Shown in pieces: positions 406 to 62,294 of a stretch of 64,000 nucleotides of DNA. The position numbers and the translations under genes were made by a program. Source of the stretch: Xanthostigma xanthostigma (lineage: Eukaryota; Arthropoda; Insecta; Raphidioptera; Raphidiidae); NCBI GenBank assembly GCA_963575645.1, contig OY754466.1:6054001-6118000 (forward strand). The letters run 5' to 3'. The notes beneath the pieces were generated by a model. It was not told the DNA's origin. It saw only the letters and a program-made list of their open reading frames with translations, and searched no databases. The first letter of the stretch is position 1. Each line of letters opens with the position of its first letter.

Positions 406-3400
406 GTAAGCAAAACAAATTACTTCACTGATAAAGTAATAATGTTTATGTATCTCGTGCGTCAATATAGTTATTATGCGTTTGGGGAGAGTTCTTTAAA
501 AAACAATTTCGGGGTCGTGTATACAAAGTGAGATAGTAATACAGTAATTCTACACCAGTTACTATGACGTGCATATGTGATTTCTGATTGGTTAGATTAA
601 AATTACAGGGAAAGATGATTTTTTACGTATTTTTGAGGAAATTTGTGAATAATCCGCAAAGTTTTTTTTGGAACGTCAAAATTTAGCGTTTTCTATGACT
701 TTTAAACTTGCCGAACCGCTACTGACTTGTGCTTTTGTTTCAGTATAGTGAGCTTGAAGTCAGATTAGCTTCACCGAGTCAGCTGCATCCAAAGCCGGAC
801 GTAAGCGATCTTCAGTTCGGAAAATACTTCACAGATCACATGCTCAAAATCTACTATCACAAGGCTCTGGGCGGCTGGCAAAAACCGGAAATAGTTCCTT
901 TCGAAAACATAACCTTACATCCTGCGGCGAAGGTGTTTCACTATGCAGTCGAAGTGAGTATATTTTTTATATCGAAAATAATCGGATCATTTCGTCATAA
1001 TCTTGATTTTCTTCTTAATCCCAGGGATTTTCCAGGTCTGACTCCACCCTAAACTTGAATCAAATGTAGTTCGATTTTTTTAATCTTACTCTTAAAAAAA
1101 TCATTTGTTTATACAGCCATTTTTATAGTGTTGGTATACGTCCTTGAAACATGTTATCTCACACTTTCTTGTAAGCCACCTAAAACGGGGGTCGGCAACC
1201 TGCGGCTCGCGAGCCGCATGTGGCTCTTTTGATGTAAAGTTGCGGCTCTCCAGTTCCATACGCAAAAAATAATTATTTTAATATATAAACCTTTAAAAAT
1301 CGTCCAATCGATCCATGATTGAGCACCATGTCTATCATTCAGCCATTTCCACTCGCGTCTCACCCGCACGCCCCAGTCGCGACGTGTCGTTCACGGATAT
1401 ATATATTATATTATACCTATATAAGCAAATACTATAATACTGAAAAGAAAATGTTTAGTGGCTCTTTAAAAACTGGGAAATGTTGTAAATTGTAACTTTT
1501 GGCTCTTCCGTCTCTAGAAGAAGACTTTGCCCGCCGTTGGTAATGTTTGTCGCAGTTGTAGACGAACCATCAGGTAGAAATACCAATGGACCACGGCCTG
1601 CAAGCCCCAGAAACCAAGATGATTAAAAAAAAAATATTATTATTATTGTGGCTCTCTTTTTGTCTACCTCAATGGTTTGTGTATTCGATACGTAAAAAGG
1701 GCGACGGTTGGCTCTAAGTCTATTCGAAGTTGCAAATGTTTTTGGTTTCCATGGTTACGAATGCAGCAAACGTAAACCCGCTGTAGTTATCTGTCGCCGG
1801 CGCTCATTTGTTTAACAAACTGTCTCGTTTTGTTATATTATGATTATATTAATTAGTTGGTCGTATTGAATAAAAAATAATTGTTGTTTTTCTACATTTT
1901 AGGATGTAACATGCACATGTTTTAACATAAGCTGTAGCTACAATATAATAATAACATAGATTATGGTAGGACCCAGGGGTTATCTGATGAAACGGCTCTC
2001 TTGCAAAATTTGCCCTTATTCAATACGGACATACTATTGATTATTGTTAACAATTAATAACGATATTTATCAAGCAGGAATTCGTAAGTTGCGCAATTGG
2101 GTGGAATTCGATGTCTCTTTGTTCCATTCTTTTTTGAAAGTCATATCTATAAATGATGACCTCTTTTTGCAAGCAGCTCTTGCTTGTTCACGAAAAATTG
2201 ACTTCGACAACAGCTAACGAGTGTCCAAAAAGTTTTTATAGCTTTGGCTATTTTTTACGAACAGAGTAGCAGTTTCGGCCGCCCTACGCCCTCGCGCGGG
2301 TGCCCCTAATATCTGACCGTTTTAGGCTCGAGCCAGTCGTTCTTATGGAAAGTCTGCCCCTGGGAGTATATAAGGAAGAAGTCTTGCTTGCGGTAGGATA
2401 AAGTAGACTTTGAATCTAAAAAGGGTGTTTCAAAACGTCTGTGGTTAGAGCCCAAACCACTGAGTCGATTTTGCTAACTTTTTATTGATTCACCGTAATC
2501 TAAAAGGGGCAAAGGAGAACACAAGAGTGAAGTTGCCGTTGTCTCTTTTCGTCTTGTTTTCCGAGCTCTTGATTGGTTCTCTTTTCTGTCATCAAGTTGC
2601 AATGATATCTTGAGCAATCCGATCAATAACCGCAGTTTCTGGCAGTATATCTTACAAGATGCTTACAATTAGTCTTGAGTATTGCTCCCCACTGTAAAGC
2701 GAATGCTTTTCAAACTGGCGTGCGAAGCGCGCAAGCTATACCAATGTCTAAAAAGAGGGCTTGGTGGCTTGCTGGTCCTAATCGTCAAAGAAGATAATGT
2801 TTAGAAGTATAATAAAGATTAGCAGTGAACCGACAATTTCCAAGAATGATGTAAATATCGAGTTAAACAAATCACAAATATTTTTTCGCCGATTAAGTAT
2901 AAAAAAAGAAAAACTGCAGATAAAATATAATTGTTATCTTCAGTAAAATAAAACAATAGATGTTTAATAAAACTATTTCATCATGTCATAGTGCAGTAAT
3001 AAAAAATTGGATATTTACAGTTATTATTTTAGAAATCTCATTTAACTGTGTAAATATTTTCAATCCTTGAATGATGACGTACAACGTTGGTTTCCATAAT
3101 TTATGGAACAACGGGAAACCAGCTCAATGTTGATAAAGTGATAGCAATGTAAGGACAGTGCGTTGCGAACTTAAAACATTTATCATTTCTTATAAAATCT
3201 TAATTTGACCAAGTGTGTAGGCCAGGGATCGCCAATTAGTTTCATTGCGGGTCCGTTCGGTAAATGATGACTAACAACAAGATTTATTAAGATGAAGGAA
3301 GGTTTTGGTTGAGGATCATAAAATAAGCTTTACCAGTGTTTCGCTAGTGGCCAACGTTTCGAAAAATTTATTTTCATCTTCAGGGCCTCAAGCTGGTCAA

Positions 3401-6400
3401 GTAGTGGTAAATTGTTCTAACTACTTGACCAGCTTAGCCGTGCTGAACCGATCTTCGAATTTGCCTTTTTAATACAAGGTGGCGCAGAGGAAACGCATGT
3501 TTTTCACCGAAGCATAACATTTTATATTTTCAAGATACTGTTGTTTTAATTACAGCTAAATGAAGTAATAATAATGCACCTTTAAATCAATTATGGAAAA
3601 TAATGTCAGTCAAGTGTCGCCCTGCTTCGCGGTCGCACATCTCCAACCGCTATTGAAAATTATGCATCACACTTAAAATCATTTCGTGTGGTACTCTTGC
3701 GATTTCTTGACGAATAGCAATTTTCAGTTCATGTAACATACGGGTCTTGTTAGCGTACACTTTAGACTTAAGGTAATCCCACAAAAAGAAGTCGCATGCA
3801 GACAAGTCTGGGGAGCATGGGGGCCAAGGAACATCCCCGAAACGGGAAATCACTTCATTTAGCTGTAATTAAAACAACAGTATCTTGAAAATATAAAATG
3901 TTATGCTTAGGTGAAAAACATGCGTTTCCTCTGCGCCACCTTGTACTACTCAACACGCTCTAGTTTAAGAATTTACGGATTTATAGAATTCTTCACATAT
4001 ATTTCATCACTGTTTCTGTTTTTTAACATCATTTTCCTTATTGGATTGCAGTTGTTCGAGGGCATGAAAGCATATCGCGGAAGAGACGGACGAATACGCA
4101 TGTTCAGACCGCTGTTGAATATGGAACGGATGAACGCCTCGGCAGTTCGCTCGGGCCTGCCGACGTTCGACGGAAAAGAATTGACCAGCTGTATATCAAG
4201 ACTCATCAGTATAGATCAAGAGTGGGTGCCCCATAGCGAGGCGTCCAGTCTTTACATCAGGCCGACTCTTATCGGCATAGACGTAAGTAAAACCCATCCC
4301 AAAATGACGCACAGATCCCGCCTCCCCTCCACAATTTCTAATCATCTGATTGGTCGCTTGAAACTGAACACAGAAGAACAAGCGATCAGATACTTGGTAC
4401 CAGCGGGTTCTCCCCTTTTACTTTCTCAAGACACGAGGCTAGAAACACTGCTTGGAGTTCTGCTGGCCCGTATGCTGGAAATGACGTCACTACGGGCTCG
4501 CTTGCTAGCTCACAAGATAGGTTTTAAAATTAGAACAGGGGCTATTTTCCTTGCTATGTCCGATGCTAGGTATGAGCAAGAACCAATCATGAAGCGTGGG
4601 CGACTTGAACTAACGCCCACAAATCAACATGCGGCGTCATTCTGCTCAGAGTCAGACAACAAACACGTTTTGCTGTGTGTTTATATTTGAACTGTACTGT
4701 GCGCGCACCAGATCTATCCACAATATAAGCTTGAAAAGACGTTTCGTGTGAAGCGAGCACATAACAGCAATCAAGAAAACCAGCGCTAGAAGACTATAGC
4801 AAGGAATCTAGCAGCGTTTCTAGTCTCGTGTGCAGCGGCTTTAATGTGTCAACCCGCTGATTGCACTAATTGTCGCCCTGTGTCTGCGTCTATATGTTGA
4901 TGAATGAATTTCGATCAATTCACCGTCGAAGATGTTCGAATAATATAATTGAAAAGCGCCTTTCTTTCCAAAAATAAACAACTTGATCTGATGTGCTCAG
5001 GTTGAGAAAAAGCAGACGTTGCTAAATTTGATTTTCAATTTTTCAGCCAACATTAGGCGTAGCGTCGTCAGAATCGGCACTCCTCTACACGATAGTCTGT
5101 CCTGTGGGATCGTATTTCAAGACGGGAGGCGCGTCGGAAATGCAATCGGTGTCCTTACTGGCCGATCCGATGTACACTCGATCCTGGAAAGGCGGGTGCG
5201 GCGATCGTAAAATGGGTTCCAATTATGCGCCGACGATTCGGGTTCAATCAGAAGCAACGAGACGAGGTCGTGCTCAAGCGCTTTGGCTGCACGGCGACGA
5301 CCATCAACTTACCGAAGTGGGAACCATGAATATATTTCTGTTGTGCGTCAATGAAAACGGAGGTTTGTCTAATTTAAATACTGCACTACCCCCTTATTTG
5401 CTTGGGTGCATGACGGCACCACTGCCTTATTGCCGAACCTGTCATAGGAGGAATCGAATGACTTTATTAATTACTAGCGGTCCCGTCCGGTTTCACCCGG
5501 GTGTAAAAGAACGAATGGGGAAGGGAGGAACATGAGTACACACATTCATATTAGTTTACCGAGATGAATGTTGTGTCCAAATTTCATGATGATCGGAGTT
5601 ACCGTTCAAAATTTTTTGTCGAAAGCAGTATTTATACTTTTTTTAACTAATAATTTTTTTTAATTAATTAAATAAGATTAAAATAAATTTTAATGTAAGC
5701 CTTAGAAGAAAGCAATGTAGAAAATAAAAAAAAAATAAAAATACATTCGCCCAACGTAGGGCTCGAACCCACGACCCTGGTATTGACAGCCTTGTGCTCT
5801 ACCGATTGCGCTAGCCGGCGCTGTATTCCTACATCGCTAATATGAGTATACTTAGTTAGTGCATTTCACCTGAATAAAAGCTTATTTTTTAGATACATTT
5901 GGAACATTTTTCATTACTGCTCCGCTCCTAATGGTCGTAGCCTGATTTTATATAGCCTATAGCCTTCCTCGATAAATGGGCTAACCAACAAAAAATTTTT
6001 TTTTCAATTTGAACCAGTAGTTATTGAGATTAGCGCGTTCAAACAAACAAACAAACTCTTCAGCTTTATATATTAGTATAGATTTAGTCTTCAGATCGCG
6101 AAAAGAAGACAATATTTTTTTCAATTATTTTGGAATCTTTTCCTAGTCTCTATAATTCAAGTAAGAGCGTATTTTCTTTTCTAGAACGAGAACTGATAAC
6201 GCCTCCATTGAACGGGCTGATCCTACCCGGAATAACAAGGCATTCGATAATGCAGCTGGCCCAAATTTGGGGTGAATTCACGGTCAGAGAAGCGACAGTT
6301 AATATGAGTCAAGTCATCCAAATGCTTAACGAAAATCGGGTATGTTTACAATAATTATTATTTACACATTTATCTTCTGAACATCAAAAAAGAAGTTAAT

Positions 6401-11024: not shown

Positions 11025-11592
11025 GCGAAAGTTCTGAATGAATACCTTCCTTTTAATAAGTAAAGTTCACTATTCAATAATCAGCTACGAATGTAAAGGT
11101 CTATAATTTTGGAAAAAAAATTAATACATTGAACTCTTACAAATAAATATGATTGACAAAATTGCCAATCAGCATTTTTCTCTTTACAAAAAAATCATAA
11201 ATCAAATAAAACAAAACAGAAACAAATATTCTAAAACAAAAGATCGGCAGGACTTTGTTAATTCTTTTAAATAAATAAAGAAAAGTTAAAAATGACTCAT
11301 TGGTTATTATTGGTGGCAGGACAAGAGCTGAATTTTTGGTATGTTTTATCCATATAAGAGGAGACTAATTAATTATGACAACTCCAAAATTTGACATCTC
11401 CAAAAATACAAGTGTTTTTTAATACGTATTAACATTCTTATATTCAATACATACACCAGCAGTTCTCAATATGTTCATTAGGAGGAATCCTTGAAATATT
11501 TCTCAAAACCTTGCAGACACAGGCGTAAAATACAAAATAAGACGCATAAAGCAGTAAGGTTAATAAATAATAATTGAAAATAATACAAGTTT

Positions 11593-11779
11593 CAAATCTT
11601 TGATTAACGTCTGATTAGAATTCTTCAATAAATTAAATTATCGACCAATTTTTCAGACAAATATATTAACAAAAAATAATAATAAATTATTTTTTGTTAA
11701 TATACCTATTTGTCTGAATAAATTATTTTTTGTTAATATATTTGTCTGAAAAATTGCTCCATAATTTTATTTATTGAAG
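11593..11779. mobile_element. Family B palindromic insertion, short copy
   Basis: Arms CAAATCTTTGATTAACGTCT... and ...AAAATTG...TTATTTATTGAAG share the family B termini. Flanked by an 11-base direct repeat AATACAAGTTT (11582-11592 and 11780-11790), fitting retroelement-type insertion. The centre, with the hammerhead-like core, is deleted. Confidence 0.75.
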
Positions 11780-12052: not shown

Positions 12053-12395
12053 CAGTAGAACCCCGATTATCCGAGGTAACATGGGGAACACCCTACCCGG
12101 ATAACTGAAAACTCGGATAATTCGGATTTATTTATTTATTAAAAAAATAAACATAAATGTACTTTAAACGGTTTATAAACGTTTTTACCATGCAAATATT
12201 TTTATTAATAAATTATTTTATCGCCCCGACGATTTTAAACGGAAATATGTACATTACATACTATATTTTAGAAGCTCGGTTAATACGGATATTGGGTCTT
12301 TAGTGGCTCGATTAATCCGGATCATAGACGCATTAGATTGGCTCGGTTAATCCAGAGCTCGGATAATTGTGACTCGGATAATCGAGGTTCTACTG
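12053..12395. mobile_element. pogo/Tigger-like MITE
   Basis: Ends CAGTAGAACCCCGATTATCC and its inverse CTCGGATAATCGAGGTTCTACTG, flanked by TA at both sides (12051-12052, 12396-12397). This terminus is typical of the pogo group. Only AT-rich DNA and further CTCGGTTAAT phrases lie inside. Confidence 0.85.
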
Positions 12396-29800: not shown

Positions 29801-31177
29801 GCTGAATGATCATAATGTGATTGACTTTTAAAAAATTAAGAGCGATTATGATAATAAATAAAATTGTCGACCAATTTTTCTCAGACCAATATATTGACAA
29901 AAAATAAAAAAATAACAAATCAATATAACATAAGATGACTTTTCGATCCGGATTTGGATCTTCTTCAGAAAAATCTAAAAAAATATAAAAATTATTAGTA
30001 CACCTATCCCCCGATTTACACGGTAGATACGTTCCTGAGAAAAACGTGTAAATCGAAAATTAAAAATTTTCGAGTCAAAACCGTGTAAATCAAAAAGCTT
30101 ACAGAAAATGCATAATTTTGCTATTTAACAGTTGTGATTTTTTTCAATATTTTTAAGTGTACACAGAAATAAAAATAAATCTTTCTGAAACTGTGAAACT
30201 TTCACTCAAATACAATTTTCCGTAGATAAAACTTTAATTTTATGCGAAGAAATACAGACACAGTGTGCGTGTGCAGCAAGTCAGCACATAAGCTCGGGAT
30301 TCCCCGTGAGATGTGTACACAGCGCACGTGTTCAATCACAGTAGCATTTAGTAGAGTGCGATAAAAACAAAAAAAAAAAAAAATTTGGAAAACCGTGTAA
30401 AAGCGAAAACGTGTAAAACAAGTACCGTGTAAATCGGGGTGTATTAATTATTTAATATTTAATATAGAATGCACAATCATTGAATATTTTTGAAAGAATC
30501 AAAAGAATTAATGAAAAATTAATAGCAAAAAAAAAAAAAAAATTGGTCGACAATTTTATTTATTTGAAGACTTCTATTCAGACGTTAATCAAAGTTTCGA
30601 TTATGATAATGTTTACTTTATTTTTCCCACGATAATATGAAATTTCGGTTTCGGTCGAAATTGGGACTCAAGCCGAAATTCGGTTTCGGCCGTAAAAACT
30701 AGTTTCGGTCGGACACTAACTACAACACTGTAAATATATAAATTAATTAGATACGGAAAAGCAATAAAATGTCATCTTTTATTTGAAACCAAGGTTACGA
30801 ATCCGTCGGTAACCACATAAAACGCGCCACCGTTTGACAGTTTGAGTATTTAGATTACTGACCTTGTGGAGCGCCGTTGGCTGCAGCGGCGGCGGCCGCA
30901 GCGGCAGCTGCTCTTTGTCTTAGCGACTGCTGCGTAAAGTTGATGGTCTGCGACTGCGATACCGTAAAATCGCCCTGCGTTTGTTGTTGATGCTGACTGT
31001 TAGGAATGTGTTGTTGCTGTTGTTGCTGCTGTTGTTGTTGTTGGGCTTGCTGTTGCTGATGCGTTTGATGTGCGTTATGCGTTTGTTGAGTCTGTTGTGA
31101 ATTTGGCGGTCCCTGTTGCGGATGCTGTTGTTGTTGTTGCTGATTGGTTGACTGCTGTTGATGAGATCCGGGATGTT

Positions 31178-31208
<31 letters not shown>

Positions 31209-34200
31209 GTTGAAATACATGCCCTGTTGAGCCGCCACTGACACTCCGCCTTTCAAATCACCTGACAAATGAAGATGTTGTCCGGCCGATACCTTTGGAA
31301 AATCAAAAGCTTATTAGATTCAAGCTGCCAGCCATGATGGTTTTTTAATTTTTAATTTTATTTTTTTAGCCTAAGTTACTTCTTATAACATTAGCTATCG
31401 CCCAGTGAAATTCCCGTCAAAATCGGCCCAATAGTTTCAGAGATTAGCCGGAACAAACAAACAGACCGACAAAAACTTTGAAAATCGTTTTTTTTTTTGT
31501 TTTAAGTACCGTATATACTTTCATATGCATTTAGTAAAAAGCTGTTATTTTGACTGTAATGTCAAAATAACAGTTTTTTTTTATTCGTAGTGTAATAAAC
31601 AATGTGGTAATTCTGTAATATTCTCTCAGTAATTAATAATATTTATATTTTTACTACCATGTATTTATAAACTTTTAGATAAATATAAAGAAAAAATGTT
31701 ATAAATCTTGACTGTCTCAAACAACGGGAATTTAAAAAAAATCGTCTCCTATACAATAAATAGTTGAACACAGTTATTACTGATAAAGTCTTCATTTTGC
31801 CTTAAAATAAATACGACTGAATTAAAAAATATTATATGGAATCAATTCGTAAATATTCTGAACAAAATCGTGTTCAATTTTTTTAAGCGATTAACCCTTC
31901 CAAAAGATGGCCGAACAAACAAAAAAAATATATATATACATCACCCCTTTTTTCAGTTGGTTAAAAATTGATTTTGAGTTAAAATGTGGATCGACTTAGA
32001 AAATTAATGTTAAAAACTATTCTGCTATAAAAAAAAATAGAATTTAATTTTTAGAGACGTGACATAATTCAATTCATAGTCGAATTATAATTATGTAATA
32101 AAGGACAGCTTGAAATTGTTAAGTTTGGAAATTTCTTGACATATAGGCAAACCATATACAGCTGTGTACGGCGGGTTGCCTGTTCGACAGTCAATTGAAG
32201 TTCGTGTTTTAGAGGCGATAAAATGGCAAAATTAAAATTAAATCTATAAAGCTGAAGAGTTTGTTTGTTTGTTTGGTTGAACGCGCTAATCTCAGAAACT
32301 ACTGATTCGAATTGAAAAAATGTTTTTTTGTTGGATAGCCCATTTATCGAGGAAGGCTGTAGGCTATATAATATCACGCTACGACCAATAGGAGCGGAGC
32401 ATCAATGAAAAATGTAACTTAAAATTTGTTCGTCCGACAAAAACTTTTGAACGATAAATCCGATCATCATGAAATTTGGACACAACATTAATCTCGGTAA
32501 ACTAAGATGAATGTGCGTACTCATGTCCCTCCCCCCATTCGTTCTTTTGCACCCGAGTGAAACCGGGCGGGAGCGCTAGTTAAAAATAAAAACCCTAACC
32601 CAAAGCTACTAGCTAATCCGTTGTTTTTAAAAGTATGAAATAATTAAATATTATTTCTTCTTCATGAAAACGTTGGGAACTGCTGCAATACGTCAACAAA
32701 GAAAAGTTTCAGAAACTACGCGTTCATGAAGACAAAGGGTAGTTTGTGTATCAAGGACGCTCGTCGGTGATTGGCCGTGATCGCTCGTTGCCTTTGTCAC
32801 TTTCCTGCTTTAAAGTACAGTCGAGTACGCTATTGTCACTTTAGTTTTGTTGAGTTGCGAGTTTGTAGTTTTTCAACAGACTGTACAAGCGCAAGCCCGC
32901 ATTCGCATCTAACTTCCGAGCCTTTTAGATTCGTGGCGCGTATTATACTGGAAGCTTGTTTTCTTTACTGAAAAGGGATTTTGGGGGGCAAAAAATCGTT
33001 TTAGCTAGGTCTCATCTCTCGAAAAAATCGTTTTCTAACAAATTTTATCATTATAAAAATCAATTTTTTGACGTATGAAAATACTTAAATATTGTAAGTA
33101 GGTTTTGGAATTTTATATAAACAGTGAAACAATTGTTTTATAAATATTATGACAGCTAATCTTTGAGACTTAAAATAAATACGAAAGAAAGAAAGTTAAA
33201 AAAACAATTATATTATAGGTGGTAAGTAATTTTAATAAATAAAATTAACCTAAATTTGAAGCGAAAGATGCAATATCATAGATTCGAATTATTATAATTA
33301 TTATATAAATTTAGGTTATGTATTACGGAATACGTTATCACGTAAAACTATCGTCCGTAAACCGACTTTACAGACAACCAATTTTTTTTTTAAACTTTCA
33401 TTACGTTTAGAGTATCTAAAAAAAAATCTCCACCTCCGCCCATGATCTGTCTGACGTCACGCCTATGCGTTTGTCGTCTCACCTTCGTACGTTCTAATTT
33501 TAAGATTAATACGGGGGATGATTCTTGTTATATAACTGGGCGGAGGCGGTGGTGGTGGTGGTGGTGGCGGCGCAACCCCAAAGCGGGGAGTATTGATTGG
33601 ACACACACACACACACGAACACACGGTTGGGGTCACAGCGTCGTCGTCGTCGTCGTCCGCCACCCCTCTTCGCCGATTACGTGACTCCGGTTCTCTACCG
33701 TCGCGCGGTCTGCTCGTCACAATTTGCCAATTCTTGAGGAATTGCATATGCAGTGATGTGAGGAGCCGTTCATGATAGACTTTTAACTATCGGTGTACCG
33801 ATTTAAACGAAATTTGGCAGTCACGTTGAGATGCGTGACAGTTCGAAGCTAGAAAAGTCGCTCGGCATAATCTGACAACATTATGCATCACCTTTCAAGC
33901 GCCAATAGCTCTATAACTCGAAATATAAACTTTCTTTAACGCGATATATTATCGCGTTAAATTAAAAGCGCTTTTCGTGGAAACCATATACAGGGTGTCC
34001 CATTAAGAATGGGACATAGAACAACCGCAGATTCTCCAATTCAAAATAAAACGATTAAGCGAAATATGCTTAGATAAAATGTTACTCGTTTCCGAAATAC
34101 GGGGTGTTGAAGTTGAAAACTGAAAAATTATTAATGTCCATAATTTTTTTAATACACCGTATAATTTTACTCAAATCGGCACACTTGTTAAATATCATAA

Positions 34201-36844
34201 AATGCACCTAACAATAAAAAAAATAGTTCAGTACGCTCTACCAGTGGCGTACGGCAGGAGTAAGTAATGCTCGTACCCCTTCTAAATGTTACGCCGCTGT
34301 CTAAATTTTAATTTTGACTATAATTTTAATTTTTTTGATATTTTCTAAGTCAATAATGTACACATTTGTTAGTTTGTTGTAAAGTCATTGGTTTTCGAGA
34401 TATTCGCAGTTTTTTTAAGACAAAATTGTAAAAATGAATATTATAAATAATACAAATAAAAATAAAAAGTCTATCTATCTTTAACTGCGAATATCTCGAA
34501 AACCAATGACTTTACAACAAACTAACAAATGTGTACATTTTTGACTTAGAAAATATCAAAAAAATTAAAATTATAGTCAAAATTAAAATTTAGACAGCGG
34601 CGTAACATTTAGAAGGGGTACAAGCATTACTTACTCCTGCCGTACGCCACTGGTAGAGCGAGTAACATTTTATCTAAGCATATTTCGCTTAATCGTTTTA
34701 TATTGAATTGGAGAATCTGCGGTTGTTCTATGTCCCATTCTTAATGGGACACCCTGTATAATCCAAGCTCCCATGACAAAAAAAGTTACCCCAACGAACA
34801 CCTCAAAATTATAAAGTGAAAATGGCTGAAAAACATGTAAGAAACATGTTACGCCCGCCAGACTAGTAAAAATTTGTTAATTGTTATTTTTTATGACTTT
34901 TTGAATTTAAAAAAAACATGATTTTTTTCCAAAACACCTGTTTGAAATTTATACAATTTGTAGTAAATAATGTACCGTTTTTGAAAAAATTTGCCTGGCT
35001 GACAATTTTTGTTAATTAACTTCTGACAGACCATTTGTTATAAATTATTTTTTTTATGAAAATGCACTTCATAACACCTCCTAATTGATTATTTTTTAAA
35101 TAAAGTTTAAGATCTCTTCTATCTAATACAACTTGTCTGGCTGGCAATTTTTGTTAATAAATTCGTCAGACTTCATTTTGAATGCACAGCATCAATGCAT
35201 CAAGATCAATCACTAGCATTTAAGAACACCTCGTTAAAAAAAAATTGGTTGTCTGTAAAGTCGGTTTACGGACGATAGTTTTACGTGATAACGTATTCCG
35301 TAATACATAACCTAAATTTTAGTAGCTGTCAAACTTGGGCCGAAGCATACTGCGTTCTCGCTTGCACGCACAGGGTCAGGCGGAACGTTACACTTTTGCG
35401 TGCGTGCAGCTGGTGTTTCATCAATTTATAAGACGTTTTCACGTCAAAAAAAAAAAACAACTGAAGTTTGCATAAAAAAATACCTGACAAACTACTCTGC
35501 CATATATAACTTCGTCAAAATTTGATAAAAAAAAGTTCTTACCTGAATACCGTGTCCTGGTTGACTGATGTGGAGCTGTTGGGCTTGATTGATCTGCAAC
35601 GTGGTTGGTCCTCCCTGCGGATTCCCACCAGGCCCCGACGGAGGTCTGGGCGGCGGTCCATTTTGAGGTCCCGCGCCCGGTCCACCGCCACGCGGCATAT
35701 AACCCGGACTGCCCTGATTCGCACCAGGACTTCCGTAAGGTGAATACTGTTGTTTATACATGCCCGGTCCAGGCGGAACCCCGTTATTCCCTGCGCCTTT
35801 CGGCTGACTATTAAACATATTCAACTCCTGTTTGATCATGTCCGGTTGAGGGAATCCGCTGTTTTTGTTATGATACCCAACATTTTGTGGATTCGAGTTG
35901 GGACTGCCCAAAAATTCGCCCGCACTATTAAACTGAAAGTCTGTATATGGTGATCTGGAATTTGGAACACGCGGACCACCAGCCGGATTGAAAGACAAAC
36001 CCATTTGGTTTTTGTGTTGATGCTGTTCGGCCATTTGCTTTAAAGTCTGCGCGGCCGGACTCAATTCTGTCTTTGGGAATTCGAGGTTAGGATAAGGCAT
36101 TCTGCTTTTGTTATCGTAAACCGGTGGCGAATACGCATTTTGCAACAACGGACTTTGCGTATTTTTAATATCCATCAAATTCTGTTGTTGCAATTGTGGA
36201 ATGTCTTTGCTATCTTCAACTTTCAACCCGTTCGGAGGTTGCAACTGCTGATTATCACTTTTGTCTTCGAAATCAAAGTCTTTCATGAACTCCGGATGCA
36301 TATCGCTTATTTCACTTATTAGTTCTTTAAACGCGTCGGAAGTTATTATTTCGTCACTATTGTCATCACCCATTAGATCCGAAAAACCGGGGAAACTGTT
36401 GCCGCCATTTACGGCGGCGTCTTTTTCTAACGCGGCGGCGCACTGATCCAAATCGGCAAAGTCATTATCGGGTTCTTGTTTGCACTCGATTAAAGTGCCA
36501 ATGTCGACGCAACCGATTCCCGAATTTGGAGTTCTCAGGTTCGTTGATGCCGGCGTGGAAGGATTCGATTTTGGGGAAGAGACGTCGCTTTTGACCGACG
36601 CGTTTGTCAAAGCTTTGACAGTAACATTTGTTGAGATCTGCTGGGGTTGAGAGTTCGCCGCCGACGTCGTGAATTCGAGTTGTTGTACGATTTCGACCGA
36701 AAATTTTGTCAAGCCCTCGCCCCCTGGATGGGACGAGTGCTGCTGGTGTTGTTGAGTTGTACATTGAAGTTTGACTGGTGGTTCTAAACCGTCGTTTCCG
36801 ACGTTGTCCAGCTCGTCGGCGGAACGTTTCAGGAATTTTTGTTG
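23582..36844 (-). CDS. mam: Mastermind, Notch pathway coactivator, 5'-partial, six exons
   Basis: Nuclear coactivator that binds the Notch intracellular domain on CSL/Su(H) and recruits transcription machinery. Exons (- strand) are 36844-35543, 31292-30863, 29617-29297, 29149-28886, 26648-26389 and 23872-23582. All have AG/GT borders and join in frame to 955 codons plus TAA-type stop. Recognition rests on the overall layout: an acidic central block, Gly/Pro/Met-rich and Gln-rich low-complexity stretches, the conserved [16 protein letters not shown] junction, and an acidic C-terminus ending FNIQDIL, as in insect Mastermind. The short N-terminal basic helix that contacts Notch and CSL is absent from all visible exons and should be in an upstream exon at higher coordinates, perhaps outside the window. 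The gene ends tail to tail with Bcat, about 16 kb away. Introns hold hAT, Helitron, pogo-like, fold-back and palindromic retroelement insertions. Confidence 0.9.
24372..25433. mobile_element. Nonautonomous hAT element in mam intron
   Basis: Ends TAGTGATGTGCCG and CGGCACATCACTA with 8-base direct repeats gtccgtag (24364-24371) and gtccatag (25434-25441), 7 of 8 equal. Repeated GATACGGATC phrases lie next to each end. Inside are two further inverted pairs (about 24492-24610; 24770-24900 with 25190-25325). No transposase frame. Confidence 0.85.
26111..26388 (-). other. Possible alternative Cys-rich 3' end of mam
   Basis: Reading straight through the exon 5 donor adds 42 codons to a stop at 26260, with C-x2-C, C-x4-C and CC patterns ([19 protein letters not shown]). 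About 100 bases on, a good acceptor (pyrimidine tract, TTTTAG) precedes 16 codons at 26158-26111 in phase 0 with exon 5, reading [13 protein letters not shown] then stop. The two pieces share the nucleotide core TGCTTTT-TTGTAA. Either could be a true alternative C-terminus or chance. No family recognised. Confidence 0.25.
26389..26648 (-). CDS. mam: mam exon 5
   Basis: Acceptor TTTTTTTGCAG and donor GTTAGC; begins by completing a Gly codon and ends in phase 0 at GPGQ. Gln/Met-rich with [15 protein letters not shown] in the middle. The frame stays open past the donor for 42 codons with an unusual Cys-rich sequence (separate entry). Confidence 0.88.
26742..27550. mobile_element. Repeat A element with inverted ends (mam intron)
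   Basis: Inverted copies of repeat A at 26742-26882 (-) and 27513-27548 (+) frame about 600 bases that include two diverged direct copies of a 90-base unit (about 27165-27385, TTCACCCCGGAATT...CACTGCGAGACAATTCGCAT). No coding frame. Confidence 0.55.
27640..27735 (-). repeat. SINE 3' fragment
   Basis: Reverse complement of the 3' end of the SINEs at 53974 and 57943 (GCGAATGGCGTCTGTTATGA followed by the ATT repeat tail). Confidence 0.75.
27920..28690 (+). repeat. Dispersed repeat G, copy 1, interrupted
   Basis: Matches the reverse complement of 47415-48007 over nearly its whole length, with repeated CCGTCAGATGGCA phrases. It differs by an inserted fold-back at about 28270-28439. Lies in mam intron. 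Confidence 0.8.
28270..28439. mobile_element. Fold-back insertion inside repeat G
   Basis: Arms of about 65 bases: GTTCCAAGCAGCCGCGAACG left and its complement right, both running into ACAGTCTTG and CTGCGCAAGACT. The other copy of repeat G lacks it, so the insertion is younger than the repeat. Confidence 0.8.
28886..29149 (-). CDS. mam: mam exon 4
   Basis: Acceptor TTTGTTACAG and donor GTAAAC; 2 + 87 codons + 1 base. Sequence is Met/Pro/Gly-rich ([18 protein letters not shown]) and includes [11 protein letters not shown], the only segment with clear amphipathic character. Reading on past the donor gives 21 more codons, which I treat as intron read-through. Confidence 0.88.
29297..29617 (-). 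CDS. mam: mam exon 3
   Basis: Acceptor TTTTATAG and donor GTTAGT. The first two bases complete a Gly codon; one base is left at the end. It holds four or five tandem copies of a GGQGM pentapeptide, then a Gln/Ala-rich helix-like stretch and the motif [20 protein letters not shown] motif of this type is conserved in Mastermind proteins. Confidence 0.9.
29855..30597 (-). mobile_element. Family B palindromic retroelement with nested MITE
   Basis: Family B ends with a 12-base direct repeat CGATTATGATAA (29843-29854, 30598-30609). Hammerhead-like core on the - strand at 29968-29940: CTGAAGA, GATCC/GGATC helix, then GAAAAGT (the usual C is A). A pogo-like MITE is nested at 30001-30441. In a mam intron. 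Confidence 0.8.
30001..30441. mobile_element. pogo-like MITE nested in family B
   Basis: Ends CACCTATCCCCCGATTTACA and TGTAAATCGGGGTG, flanked by TA (29999-30000; 30442-30443). Repeated CCGTGTAAA phrases near both ends. Confidence 0.7.
30863..31292 (-). CDS. mam: mam exon 2 (poly-Gln exon)
   Basis: Acceptor TTCCAAAG before 31292 and donor GTCAGT after 30863; 143 codons plus one base. It opens [16 protein letters not shown], strongly like fly Mastermind, and then has several glutamine runs of up to about eleven, [14 protein letters not shown], and a run of about ten alanines. Both CAA and CAG codons occur, so the runs are not pure repeats. Confidence 0.9.
31375..31500 (+). repeat. Transposon fragment
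   Basis: Phrase AAATCGGCCCAATAGTTTCA followed by ACAAACAAACAGACCGACAA, of a kind common near the ends of insect repeats. Class not determined. Confidence 0.4.
32243..32579 (+). mobile_element. Nonautonomous Helitron without the tRNA part
   Basis: Starts A|TCTATAAAGCTGAAGAG and ends GGGAGCGCTAG|T with the CCCGAG..CCGGG hairpin region before it. It matches the Helitron at 5474 on both sides but lacks about 190 central bases including the tRNA-like part. In mam intron. Confidence 0.8.
32758..32953 (+). repeat. Repeat D, partial copy
   Basis: Right part of the element complete at 43712 and 54769; ends CCTTTTAGATTCGTGGCGCG. Confidence 0.75.
33307..33390 (+). repeat. Repeat E terminal fragment
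   Basis: AACTATCGTCCGTAAACCGA and flanks, found inverted at 35236-35325 and direct at 53497-53565. Confidence 0.75.
33541..33660. repeat. Cluster of microsatellites
   Basis: (GGT)n-like run at 33549-33567, (AC)n at 33600-33613 and (GTC)n at 33640-33656 within 120 bases. ORFs here are low-complexity artefacts. Confidence 0.8.
33991..34756. mobile_element. Large near-perfect fold-back MITE
   Basis: Ends CAGGGTGTCCCATTAAGAAT with the exact inverse on the right; TA on both sides. Arms of about 360 bases are nearly identical (ACCAATGACTTTACAACAAA in both), so the insertion is young. In mam intron. Confidence 0.85.
35236..35446 (-). repeat. Repeat E, deleted copy
   Basis: Joins both ends of the element at 53033: GGTTGTCTGTAAAGTCGGTT at one side and GGGTCAGGCGGAACGTTACA to TTATAAGACGTT at the other. 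Sits just after mam exon 1. Confidence 0.7.
35543..36844 (-). CDS. mam: mam exon 1 of the visible part
   Basis: Preceded on the - strand by acceptor TTGTTGCAG and ended by donor GTAAGA. It has 434 codons, phase 0 at both ends. It starts [14 protein letters not shown]. An acidic region lies at about residues 115-200 ([41 protein letters not shown]). A Pro/Gly/Asn-rich tail with [14 protein letters not shown] leads to [11 protein letters not shown]. The acidic region resembles the conserved acidic block of Mastermind proteins, presumed to be an interaction or activation surface. Confidence 0.9.
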
Positions 36845-41679: not shown

Positions 41680-42040
41680 AATAAATAGTAAAAACAAAAA
41701 ACACGTGAAAATTCTACCAAATATTTTGTCTTCTCAACGATCAAGACATTAAGTCCATCATCAGGAGTACAGCCGTCTATAATAATAATAATAATATTTA
41801 TTTTACCCCATTGACAAAAGAGTATATGGCATGTCCATTAAAAAAACTTAGAGATTACATATTAAAAAAATCATAAATGCTATAAAATTCTCTGCTTACC
41901 CGATCATTCTTTAACTTCCTTTTCATGGTTTGCAATGGCAAATGTACTCCTGATGATGGACTTAATGTCCGAAACGATCGGTGAGAAGAGAAAATATTTT
42001 GAAGAATTTTCACGTGTTTTTTATTATTTGTTATTAATCA
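41680..42040 (+). mobile_element. Penelope-like terminal repeat pair
   Basis: Inverted arms of about 70 bases (AAAACACGTGAAAATTCT left, complement right) each hold TGATGATGGACTTAATGTC. The right arm has an intact hammerhead-like core; in the left the GAAA part is changed to TTGA. Inverted termini with hammerhead motifs are a Penelope-like trait; no reverse transcriptase is left. Confidence 0.55.
41950..41981 (+). ncRNA. Hammerhead-ribozyme-like core
   Basis: CTGATGA (41950-41956), helix II GGAC/GTCC around TTAAT, GAAA (41971-41974), then CGATCGG. All core positions of the hammerhead on this side are kept. Helices I and III and cleavage site were not established. Confidence 0.5.
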
Positions 42041-42339
42041 TGTTCTACCAAGTGCCGAGTGAAAAATCATTGCAAATTTTTGAACTGTTATTTTTATTAT
42101 TATACGTCCGAAATTAATGTTATGATAATTTTCTGTACAAAGCACGGGTTATTTTGAAACTGAACTAAAAATTAGTATTTATCTATATTAAAAACATGCC
42201 AGTTGTAAAACAGTACCTATACATATTTTCATGCATGCCAATTCTTTCCAGAACTTGAATTTTTCGACAAATTGTTAGCAAGGATTCACAAAGAATGAAA
42301 AAATATAATTTACATTTGTTGAATTTACCTAAACTTTAA

Positions 42340-42692
42340 ACTCAAATAAATAAAATTGTCGACCAATTTTTCTGACCATATATTGAAAAAAAAAAAAATA
42401 AAAATACAAATCAATATAGGTAACACAAGTTGACGTTTCGATCCGGATTAATTTTTCATAATTTTTTTAATCATTCAAACTTTCGTGCAATCTATTAGAT
42501 AATAAATAACTTAATACTAATTAATTTTTATATTTTTTAGATATTTCTGAAGAAAATCAAAATCCGGACCGAAACGTCATCTTGTGTTATATTGATTTGT
42601 ATTTTTATTATTTTTTGTCAATATATGGTCTGAGAAAAATTTGTCGACAATTTTATTTATGTATTTGAAGAGTCGTTCTATTCAGACGTTAA
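42340..42692 (+). mobile_element. Family B palindromic retroelement
   Basis: Arms AAATAAAATTGTCGACCAAT and inverse. The left arm has GACGTTTCGATCCGGATT (inverted half-core) and the right a full core at 42547. Target duplication not resolved. Confidence 0.7.
42547..42578 (+). ncRNA. Hammerhead-ribozyme-like core (family B)
   Basis: CTGAAGA, then a weakened helix II region (AATCAAAATCCGGACC), then GAAACGTC. The ACGU after GAA is self-complementary, so helix III could form only as a very short or dimeric stem. Confidence 0.45.
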
Positions 42693-43711
42693 TCAAAGAT
42701 TTGAATTAAACAAATTTAATTTAGACACCCTGTAACTAAATTTCGCCTCGTCAACTAACAAAATTTCAGTGATAAAACATAGTCCTGCAACTAAATTTCA
42801 CCCTGTATTAGTTACACGGTGAAAGTGTGCATACAAGCGGTGAACGTGTCAAGCATACTATTGTCGCACATCCAGTACGCAGCGTCTCTGTGTGAGTTGT
42901 AACAGCTCATACAGAGAAGCAACGAGTGTACAGTATACAGGGGATCCATTTTAATCTTACCAGACAGATATTTGAAAACATGGTGGGGATAAAAAAAAAT
43001 TTCCAACAAAAGTTGTACGGTTATTAGGGGGCAGACTCATCCCCCTTTCCACAACCATCCTCGTGGGGGTGGCGGTAAATCGAATTTTTTAAATAGCAAC
43101 CCCCATTTTTGTTGACGTATTTTGATTGAGTTGGCAAAAAAATACAACTTTTTTTCGAAAATGCAAATCTGTCAAGTTACCGAGCTGTCAAAATCAAAAT
43201 TTTCAAAGTTCAGCGGGAAGGTAATTGAGAAAATTACAGGTAAAAAATTATTTTTCTTGATTATTTCATGGACAGGACGGGAATTTCGAGATTTGGTTTT
43301 GCTGCCAAACGCGCCAATAGATGTTTCACATAAAAAAAAACTTGAATTTGAAAAATCCATCTCATCTTTATCGCCGTTTAGTTCAAGATGCACGACTTAA
43401 GAGGCCAGTAGTGTAACTTACTGTATTGTAAGTGGCTATAATTAAACCGCAATTTGGCCTCCAAAACAATGATGTAATATGAACCTATATATACTTGCAT
43501 ATTATACGCCATTCATGCAGTCATAATTAGGCTTCGGAAGGCTGCTTATTAGAACAGAACTGGCCAAAATAAAAACAAACGAATACCGTTTCTCCGACTT
43601 TGCAACGTGACAATAGTTTTAACCAAAGCCGCGGCCAAGGAGGGTCACAACCCAATTTTGTGCAGAAGTCAGAAGCTCTGTTCCAACCTCTCTGATATGG
43701 AGGGTAGAGGG

Positions 43712-52940: not shown

Positions 52941-53032
52941 TATAGTACGATTCCCGACTTGTGGTTAGGAATGGTAAAATGTTTCTCCACTAAAATATGG
53001 CTAAATCATATTATGCAATAATACTTATTTAT

Positions 53033-53565
53033 GTTTTTGACGTGATAACGTCTTATAAATTGATGAAACGCCAATCTTATAAACTGATGAAACACCGGAT
53101 GCATGTACGAAAAAGTGTCACGTTCCGCCTGACCCTGTGCGTGCAAGCGAGAGCGCAGTATAAGCGATAGAGAAGCACGATCGGCCCAAGTTTGACAGCT
53201 ACAAAAATCTATTTATTAAAGATCACAAGACACAAACTTCCAATAGACTGCCACAGTTCGCTCGTATATATACTTATAGGGAGTGAAAAATCCACACTAC
53301 CCGACCGTCCGTTTATTAAAACTGCGTGTATTTTGAAAACGGTTCATTATATTTAAAAACCGTTTCTACAGTTGGTTAGAACTCTAATTTTACTATTTAA
53401 ATATGTAAAAATAAATGTTTGGAAACGTATACGTATAATGTGAAAAATAAAAAAAGTTATTTTTCAACACTTTACGAGTATGGTTCAATGTTTCTTTATG
53501 ACGTTATCACGTAAAACTATCGTCCGTAAACCGACTTTACAGACAACCAATTTTTTTTTTAATAA
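53033..53565 (+). mobile_element. Repeat E, long copy
   Basis: Ends around GACGTGATAACGTC and GACGTTATCACGT; right end AACTATCGTCCGTAAACCGA. Shares both ends with 35236-35446. Confidence 0.6.
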
Positions 53566-54158
53566 ATCGAACGTAATCAAGCACTCATATTTACATTAAA
53601 AATACGCGTCTCGAAATATCTCACATGAGATCAAAATCTCACGGCATCAATCGGTTAACTTTATGGACCGGCAAGTTATTCGACGAGAATTCAATTGTTT
53701 ATGCAGTGTTGTTGTGACTAACAGTTCAATAATGTTAGCGTACAAAGCCTACCATGATCCTCACCTAATGCCGATGTCATGATGATGTGTACGTAAGCAC
53801 GCACGCTGCCCTCCGCTCCACGCCCCCACCCACCATTTTATTAGCGTCGCAATCTGCTTGCGTGCTCTCAGTGCAAGCCTCCGTTAACTCTAATTATTAT
53901 CAATACTCGGGCACTTTAGCCGCGACGAAGAACAATATCATCCGTTTGAATATGTGTATTGTTTTAAATACAGAGCGCGAGGTGGCGTAGTGGTGAGAGC
54001 ACTAGACTCGTCATTCGGGAGGTACCGGGTACGAATCCCGGCGGGGACACATGTGGCTGGGACTTTTTCCTGCGCTGCCTCTCGCCGAGAAACGGTAATT
54101 CCTGTACCGGTCATCTTGTTGGGGTTTTCCATGGTTTCCCTCAATAAATCCAGATAAA

Positions 54159-54487
54159 CAAATCTTTGATTAACGTCTGATTAGAACTCTTCAATAAATA
54201 AAATTATCGACCAATTTTTCAGACAATATATTAACAAAAAAATATATAATTAATACATTAACGTTTCAATCCGGATTTGTTATTATTTTTTCAATATTTT
54301 GATATCAATTAATATTTTTGAAGAAATTTTATAAAAAGCGAATTAGAAATTAAATATCAATTATTTTTTATATTTTTTAGATCAGTTCTGAGGAAGGTCC
54401 AAATCCGGATTGAAACGTTAATGTATTAATTATATTTTTTGTTAATATATTGTCTGAAAAATTGGTCGATAATTTTATTTATTAAAA
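54159..54487 (+). mobile_element. Family B palindromic retroelement in SINE
   Basis: Exact 12-base duplication AATCCAGATAAA at 54147-54158 and 54488-54499. Arms CAAATCTTTGATTAACGTCT to AATATATTAAC and inverse. Core on + strand at 54388: CTGAGGA, GGTCC/GGAT helix region, GAAACGTT. No coding frame. Confidence 0.85.
54388..54419 (+). ncRNA. Hammerhead-ribozyme-like core (family B)
   Basis: CTGAGGA (fits CUGANGA), helix II candidate GGTCC with GGATT, GAAACGTT. Confidence 0.45.
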
Positions 54488-58360: not shown

Positions 58361-58877
58361 TTACCCTGCAAGGTGTGCAAAAATCAAGGTTCAGTTTTAA
58401 TGTCATTTCAGTGCAGAAATAGTAATATTTACCAGATATCTAGAATAGTTTTGAATATCTGCAACATTACTGTTGTTGGTTTAACTGTAGTTATGCGCAT
58501 GTTTTTATAACACAATGTTACGTTGTTTACATCGTTCTAGAATACTTTGTTACACCTGAAATGCTCGTAACTTATACACAAACGGTGGCCAATTTAAATG
58601 GTCATCGCTTGTTTTTACCTGAACAAAAAGACATACCAGTTTAGTTAAATCACTTGCATACCGTCGTCGCTTCATAGCATACCTCCCTTTTATGTTGTTT
58701 GTTCTTTTCATGTTAGTTTTGTGATGTTGCAAAAAAAACAGATCACGATATAATAATCACAATTTTGACTGCGCTAAAATGAGTGGCCACAGAAAATGAT
58801 TTCAAATTTCCCTGATAATTCCCGGTTTTCCACGAAATTTGTTATACTTTTCCATAATTCAATATCTTATTTGTATG

Positions 58878-59106
58878 TTCAAATAAATAAAATTGTCAAC
58901 CAATTTTTTTCTCAGACCATATATTGACAAAAAATAATATGAAAAAACAAATCAACATAACAAAAGATGATGTTTCGATCCGGATTTGGATCTTCTTCAG
59001 AAATATCTAAAAAATATAAAAATTAATTTATAGAATGCTCGAAAAAATTGGTCGACAATTTTATTTATTTGAAGAGTTCTACTCAGACGTTAATCAAAGA
59101 TTTGAA
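58878..59106 (-). mobile_element. Family B palindromic retroelement
   Basis: Exact 13-base duplication TCTTATTTGTATG at 58865-58877 and 59107-59119. Best-kept core, on the - strand at 59000-58971. Confidence 0.85.
58971..59000 (-). ncRNA. Hammerhead-ribozyme-like core (family B)
   Basis: CTGAAGA, perfect 5-bp helix II GATCC/GGATC, then GAAACATC (GAAACGTC in the consensus). Confidence 0.5.
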
Positions 59107-59664
59107 TCTTATTTGTATGATCGAGATATTTAAAGTTTTGATTAAAGTCATTTTTTTTGTACTTTTTCAAATCGAAATTGAGCATTAAAACAATTTCTTG
59201 CATTTTTTCAAGCATACAAAACTTTATCTCTTAAACTAATGATGGCACAGTAAACCTTCTTTTTACTGATCATTAGAGATATCGATGGTAAGAAACCAAA
59301 GGTTACTTTTTACTTAATCGCCGATATCTCAGCGATAAATAGTCGCATAGCAAACAAAAAAATACCAAATTGAAGTTTGAACACCAGACTCAATGAAAAG
59401 CTTGAAAAAAACTTTTTTTCGAGGCACTTTTAAAACAACAAAACATTTTCAAAACTAGAAATTTAAAACTCCAAAATGCTATTTTTCCCTGATATTTCCA
59501 GGTTGCATTAAATTCCCTTATAATTCCAGGTCTGTGGCCACCCTGAATACGAAAAATCCAGGCACATATACTGACATCTGACGTAATACAATAAAGAATG
59601 TAATTTTTAATTTCAAAATATTTAGACAAAAATAATCGATTGCATATCTAGTTTCGAATTTCTC

Positions 59665-62099: not shown

Positions 62100-62167
62100 G
62101 TTCAAATCTTTGATTAACGTCTGAACAGAACTCTTCAAATCAATAATGGTTGACAATTTTATTTATT
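62100..62167. mobile_element. Family B terminal stub
   Basis: Only the joined arms remain (TTCAAATCTTTGATTAACGT to AATTTTATTTATTT). Near-repeat TAAATATATAG/TAAATATAAAG on the flanks. Confidence 0.6.
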
Positions 62168-62294
62168 TAAATATAAAGTCTTTTTGAAACAACAAATTCA
62201 GTTTTTAAACACTGTTTACTATTTTTCTAAAATTCTTTTTATGCGCCAATTTATATTGGCAAACAGTAATAACTAGTATTTTTGCTTTGAATAA

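Follow-up and report, generated by a model that had tools for sequence, protein, structure and literature searches.

Penelope-like elements (PLEs) of the Penelope/Poseidon group have been described from Adineta vaga (Pen2a/Pen3a, PMC3846280) and from the anole (PAc, PMC11167929). The elements reported here resemble these accounts in having an ORF with reverse transcriptase (RT) and GIY-YIG parts, direct pseudo-LTRs (pLTRs), an inverted pLTR on one side, a tail of 30–40 bp, target duplications, and a hammerhead in or next to the pLTR. Inverted pLTRs with an optional tail were described in 2013 (PMC3846280), and solo pLTRs and unrelated DNA caught between pLTRs are also on record (PMC3846280, PMC11167929), while pLTRs, inverted pLTRs and Penelope activity are treated in general terms elsewhere (PMC8969392, PMC12910113). 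According to Frangieh et al. 2024 (PMC11167929), both target strands are cut and extended by the anole PLE, and reverse transcription begins internally at two neighboring sites that bound the tail. How PLEs integrate, and what their widespread hammerhead does, are presented as open questions in this literature (PMC11167929, PMC7761336).

The window, i.e. the whole 64,000-nucleotide stretch of Xanthostigma xanthostigma DNA that was analyzed (G000:C3:6054001-6118000), contains six short insertions, which the original prediction grouped as family B. A blastn comparison within the window found one kind of sequence at all six places, confirming that they are related. In the current study, these short copies are very probably explained as individual two-sided target-primed products of a host PLE rather than as a parasite family with one set structure. 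The copy at the center of the analysis has the following layout.

58864..58877, no strand: target duplication, left copy, ATCTTATTTGTATG
58878..59106, no strand: the copy under study, a head-to-head pLTR pair plus tail
58878..59032, minus strand: pLTR arm without tail, extending to about -188 of the pLTR reference (blastn)
58969..59000, minus strand: hammerhead-like core CTGAAGA-A-GATCC..GGATC-GAAACATC (motif comparison)
59043..59073, plus strand: second pLTR arm, short (blastn to the pLTR references)
59074..59106, plus strand: 33-nt tail, located just 5' of the ORF start codon in full-length elements
59106..59119, no strand: target duplication, right copy, whose first A is common to the tail end

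The predicted palindromic ends are present in this copy as a 32-nt inverted repeat (58878-58909 versus 59042-59073; 97% complementary). The other five copies in the window, none with a strand assigned, are arranged as follows.

11591..11779: 54159-type arms, tail on the left, duplication of at most 12 bp
29852..30600: arms separated by filler, tail on the right, duplication of at most 13 bp, hammerhead-like core at 29968 (minus strand)
42341..42705: tail on the right, duplication not evident, hammerhead-like core at 42547 (plus strand) with helix II broken
54157..54487: 54159-type copy, tail on the left, 13-bp duplication, hammerhead-like core at 54388 (plus strand) with every compared position kept
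62101..62171: very short, about 71 bp in all, tail on the left, duplication doubtful

The copy at 29855 had been delimited too narrowly, with an end near 30000. Its second arm and tail lie at 30538-30600, which puts the real end at about 30600 and separates the matching arms by approximately 440–540 bp. Between them lies a filler of about 440 bp (30001-30441).

Alignment of the arms (75 of 89 arm matches, those longer than 60 nt) gave a mean identity of 94%. The copies are of two sequence types. In the hammerhead sense, the main type runs from the pLTR through CTGAAGA-A-GATCC-AAATCC-GGATC-GAAACGTC to the end TATTTGAA, which on one side of the copy only is followed by the 33-nt tail, terminating in GATTTGAA. 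The second type is that of the 54159 copy and, among the full elements, of C6 and C8; it has GAAACGTT followed by a shorter stretch. The copy at 11593 had its best match to this second type.

Three further places in the window (33310-33387, 35234-35456 and 53027-53566) are 87–99% identical to L038, a GIY-YIG locus with hammerhead motifs. A fragment of another PLE lineage is found at 3304-3388 (minus strand); it is 89% identical to L079/L085 and has an intact-looking minimal hammerhead of its own.

Derivation from Penelope elements had been offered in the original prediction as inference, together with the suggestion to look for a full element with the same ends. Full PLEs of two pLTR types were found in the same genome, and share the pLTR, the 33-nt tail, the hammerhead motif and the ends with the short copies, confirming that derivation. 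The element at C6:37064168-37067457 (about 3.3 kb) consists of an inverted tail-less end, direct pLTRs (461 bp, 99.3% identical), an 819-codon frame and a tail end; about 24 nt separate the tail end from the start codon. It is flanked by a 14-bp duplication, TAATAATGGTATAC, and that of C8 measures 13 bp, AAATACCCTTATA. Shorter direct repeats of 85 bp and 106 bp occur in C1a and C8. The 819-codon frame was also found in C1a and C7, and the frame of C8 is altered near the C-terminus. By pLTR type, C1a, C7 and C1b are partners of the 58878-type copies, and C6 and C8 of the 54159-type copies. The arm consensus of the 58878 type is only about 91% identical to the pLTRs of C1a, C1b and C7, so that part of the short copies may stem from different loci.

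Neither the 819-aa protein (E up to 0.001) nor a 684-aa relative from C1b (E up to 10) matched the Pfam RT or GIY-YIG models. The 684-aa relative aligned to P0001, which carries Pfam RVT_1 and GIY-YIG, with 31% identity over 555 aa (E 4e-60), and the motifs YVDD and YIGQT..R were visible in that alignment. The 819-codon lineage is linked to RT and GIY-YIG proteins through this homology and these motifs. The short copies do not hold the frame.

The initial search of the genome (623 Mb, 28 contigs) scored 40 of 1180 candidates, and the GIY-YIG search that led to the PLEs scored 150 of 521. RVT_1 and GIY-YIG domains are carried by two proteins of the PLEs reached in this way, and a search with one such protein gave at least 78 PLE matches (78 of 1245 candidates scored). 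When 20 upstream regions were fetched, a frame starting MSKQISGF was immediately preceded by the family-B pLTR and tail in three loci (L083, L089 and L093), and L082 had this frame with no pLTR match; C7 and C1b were added later as partners. The first PLEs reached via GIY-YIG (L073 and L074) were rejected as partners, being absent from the best 40 blastn matches of the family-B queries (weakest E 8e-5). A tandem PLE array was also observed at G000:C7:24097535-24111323, with five matches on the same strand, spaced by 3,097 bp and each lying in an open frame of 823 aa.

Copy numbers were estimated by word counts over the whole genome, in which older copies that have diverged further go uncounted. 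A 22-nt tail word (at most one mismatch) occurred at 12,351 places (6,175 + 6,176) and the hammerhead word at 6,071 + 6,091 places. The tail continued into the ORF leader at only 27 places, an RT-domain word was found at 65, and reversed-pattern control words at none, giving approximately 190–460 tail places for each ORF-bearing copy. Such a ratio (12,351 tails to 27–65) is what a small non-autonomous parasite with a fixed palindromic master, mobilized in trans by the PLE protein, could produce, as the original prediction proposed, and the roughly 91% identity of the 58878-type consensus to known pLTRs leaves room for a source of this kind. However, inner junctions and lengths differ among the copies (28 from contig C1 measured 78 to 501 bp), making a parasite of this kind quite improbable. 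Inner junctions that vary next to outer ends that are fixed do not agree with a short family multiplying as a fixed unit, and fit separate products of reverse transcription.

The ends of the copies were studied in 85 loci, comprising 40 from a tail sample on contig C1, 39 found by similarity to the 58878 copy and the six in the window. Three loci had been dropped before counting, as L001 is the 58878 copy itself, and L071 and L072 lie at the places of L019 and L007. Arms were mapped to three pLTR references, each ending at the tail. Two opposed arms were present in 60 of the 85 loci and a single arm in the remaining 25. Among the two-armed copies, 59 of 60 had one end with the tail and one without, none had tails at both ends, and the one copy called tail-less at both ends (L118) has a separated tail match. 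An inverted pLTR with the tail at one end only is also the arrangement of C6 and C8. The tail-less end was called at -15 to -42, mostly at about -31 to -36. The inner ends of two-armed copies ranged from about -30 to -280, the two arms overlapping, nearly abutting or being separated by filler, and the single arms of L010 and L021 extended to the reference end at -519, which lies within coding sequence.

Similarity between the arms of one copy was ranked against that between arms of different copies in the 35 of 42 two-armed copies with enough overlap. Arms within one copy were often the closer pair (rank < 0.05 in 17/35), and in L131 and L141 they were 100% identical; in 6/35 the rank exceeded 0.5. 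Some of the junctions coincide with palindromes, e.g. ATCCGGAT (L108, L131). Near-identical arms and palindromic junctions would be expected if a single cDNA folded back at a palindrome, primed itself and copied itself into inverted arms, and self-priming has been inferred for inverted repeats of Penelope (PMC3846280). A cDNA folded back in this way would, however, bring the tail into the second arm, whereas tails at both ends were seen in 0/60 copies and the second arm ends close to the inner site. Many arm pairs are also unequal in reach, and six of the 35 differ as much as arms of unrelated copies. Self-priming is therefore considered an unlikely origin of the short copies. One RNA used twice, or sister RNAs of one locus, would fit both the alike and the unlike arm pairs.

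Exact duplications of 11, 12, 12 and 13 bases had been claimed at four of the six window copies. Duplications of about 10–14 bp were recovered at the same number of copies, with different lengths: the longest exact flanking matches were 12 bp (11591-11779), 13 bp (29852-30600), 13 bp (54157-54487) and 14 bp (58878-59106), each of which may include 1–3 chance or terminal bases. The longest flank match of 42341-42705 was 6 bp and that of 62101-62171 was 10 bp but out of register, so neither gave a convincing duplication. Across 30 copies chosen because both ends were recognized, 22 (counting the uncertain 62101 copy) had exactly matching flanks over at least 10 bp, compared to 0 of 870 mismatched flank pairs.

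The C1 sample was drawn by the tail word alone: of the first 45 tail places listed on that contig, 40 were used and five were skipped (C1:2992409, 2992955, 3234432, 5142531 and 5142907). Because every place listed has a perfect tail word, old copies are under-represented. Both ends could be placed in 28, a usable second arm being absent in 12/40. Of these 28 copies, 15 had a duplication of at least 10 bp (3/756 in control pairs) and 13 did not. The duplicated sequences were A+T rich (86%, versus 66% in the flanks). Two copies near 2.02 and 2.03 Mb of G000:C1 (L109 and L110) have a common 25-nt left flank and different right flanks, perhaps because both were inserted into one repeat or because of a duplication.

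Target duplications of variable length, present in the short copies as well as in C6 and C8, are as in PLEs. A short size and inverted ends are also features of a DNA transposon (MITE) with terminal inverted repeats. Equal inverted repeats and a fixed short duplication were not found, though, since the tail is on one side only, junctions are variable and duplications are about 10–14 bp. The ends belong, moreover, to elements with a reverse-transcriptase-like frame, and an origin as a MITE is hardly credible.

The motif CTGANGA...GAAA had been predicted in four copies together with helix II. The motif itself was confirmed in all four, but a paired helix II in only three (29968 minus, 54388 plus and 59000 minus), the exception being the motif at 42547. 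The core, helix II and the ACGT palindrome were all kept only at 54388 among the family-B motifs of the window. The corresponding stretch reads GAAACATC in the 58878 copy, with ACAT where the ACGT that replaces helix III is expected, and GAAAAGTC in the 29855 copy. No match at the Rfam gathering score was found in the window or in 18 related loci, including other PLE lineages, and no hammerhead at E up to 10 in 42300-42740. Matches to snoRNA and CRISPR models in the latter region were below their cut-offs and were taken as chance. At 41950 (plus strand), outside family B, a hammerhead-like sequence CTGATGA-T-GGAC..GTCC-GAAACGATC was observed.

In a first comparison of eleven motifs, helix II paired in 44/44 cells, but a paired helix II had been a condition for choosing these motifs, and the count is no evidence for helix II; in the place of helix III they have a palindrome, ACGT, ACTAGT or ATGTACAT, as do the minimal PLE hammerheads (PMC7761336, PMC6155905). 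An unbiased set was obtained with the pattern CTGANGA-N10..20-GAAACGTH alone from 59 PLE loci (150,943 bases), giving 10 distinct motifs and none with the reversed pattern. In these motifs the four outermost pairs of helix II formed in 40/40 cells when one spacer nucleotide was allowed, and in 14/40 without it. In seven representatives, helix II paired in 28/28 positions (shuffled mean 17.5; 3 of 10,000 shuffles reached 28) and helix I in 23/28 (shuffled mean 12.1; 6 of 10,000 reached 23). Pairing of helix II across copies, on which the original prediction had staked the hammerhead, therefore held over several Penelope lineages, in 10/10 motifs chosen with no pairing condition. With the core CTGANGA/GAAA, paired helices II and I and no helix III, the motifs have the form of the minimal PLE-type hammerhead, an identity that is supported by comparison across PLE lineages. 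In all 10 motifs a single additional A or T separates CTGANGA from helix II, and none is fully paired in the textbook register. The textbook hammerhead core has no such nucleotide at this position. With 1–2 of 4 pairs, helix I is weak in the main family-B type, which makes activity of its predicted hammerhead uncertain.

If RNA cut by the hammerhead were the template, the arms would end at the cleavage site. Of 143 arms compared with the predicted site, 91 read through it, 40 stop short and 12 end within 8 nt, and no clustering of inner ends at the site was seen in these raw counts. Cleaved RNA is therefore not the usual template. The hammerhead does not seem to set either the ends or the template of the short copies, as judged from the mapped arms. 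Mutants of the anole PLE hammerhead still insert (PMC11167929).

A retrozyme-like element, spreading by RNA circles made by the hammerhead, would share with the present copies the motif in the arms, and animal retrozymes are described as short, low in G+C and flanked by long duplications (PMC7229834). Tandem direct repeats bounded by hammerheads were not found, however: the arms are inverted, the motif is the PLE form that has no helix III, and the ends coincide with the tail boundaries instead of the cleavage site, which most arms read through. Such a mode of spread is very improbable here.

Fixed starts and variable stops are the traces that reverse transcription from both target strands would be expected to leave. 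In the pathway we propose, the PLE protein would cut the two strands of AT-rich target DNA about 10–14 nt apart, and reverse transcription would start inside the PLE RNA at two sites 33 nt apart, just 5' of the start codon. The cDNA from the outer site would yield the end with the tail and that from the inner site the tail-less end, each proceeding a variable distance into the pLTR. Head-to-head joining of the two cDNAs would follow, in many cases at a palindrome or a short overlap and in some with added filler. The hammerhead, of the minimal dimer type, would come with the pLTR and would not be needed to define the short copies.

The strict one-tail rule is unlike two independent choices of start, so that some coupling must be assumed. 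It is evenly balanced, in our judgment, whether the starts are coupled such that each copy receives one cDNA begun at the outer site and one begun at the inner, and never two from the outer. The alike arms of 17/35 copies would also fit one template or fold-back. If coupling is real, the junctions would document an ordered integration reaction by two subunits, of which little more than the outline is known otherwise, and would show the conserved hammerhead to be mostly uncut in the RNA that is copied.

The value of these results is that one genome supplies thousands of short insertions with countable ends and junctions. The sample suggests that cDNA synthesis begins at two fixed sites under a one-tail rule, on templates mostly uncut at the hammerhead site. 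It also offers a plain origin for the dispersed minimal hammerheads of this genome, which are carried along when pLTRs are copied.

The motifs are like the minimal dispersed type I hammerheads (Cervera and de la Pena 2014; Lunse et al. 2017, via PMC7761336 and PMC6155905) in having no helix III, in their thousands of dispersed copies and in their location in PLE pLTRs; those of PLEs are said in PMC7761336 and PMC6155905 to act as dimers. They may differ from them in the extra A or T before helix II, seen in 10/10 motifs. Animal non-LTR retrozymes, as outlined in PMC7229834, are likewise short, low in G+C and hammerhead-bearing with long duplications, but the units in X. xanthostigma are inverted, have no helix III and have boundaries away from the cleavage site. 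In comparison with the Penelope/Poseidon PLEs, the differences are that copies without the ORF outnumber those with it by about 190–460 to 1 and that the one-tail rule can be counted (59/60). The kind of element is already known; the scale, the one-tail count and the read-through at the hammerhead site are the parts of interest.
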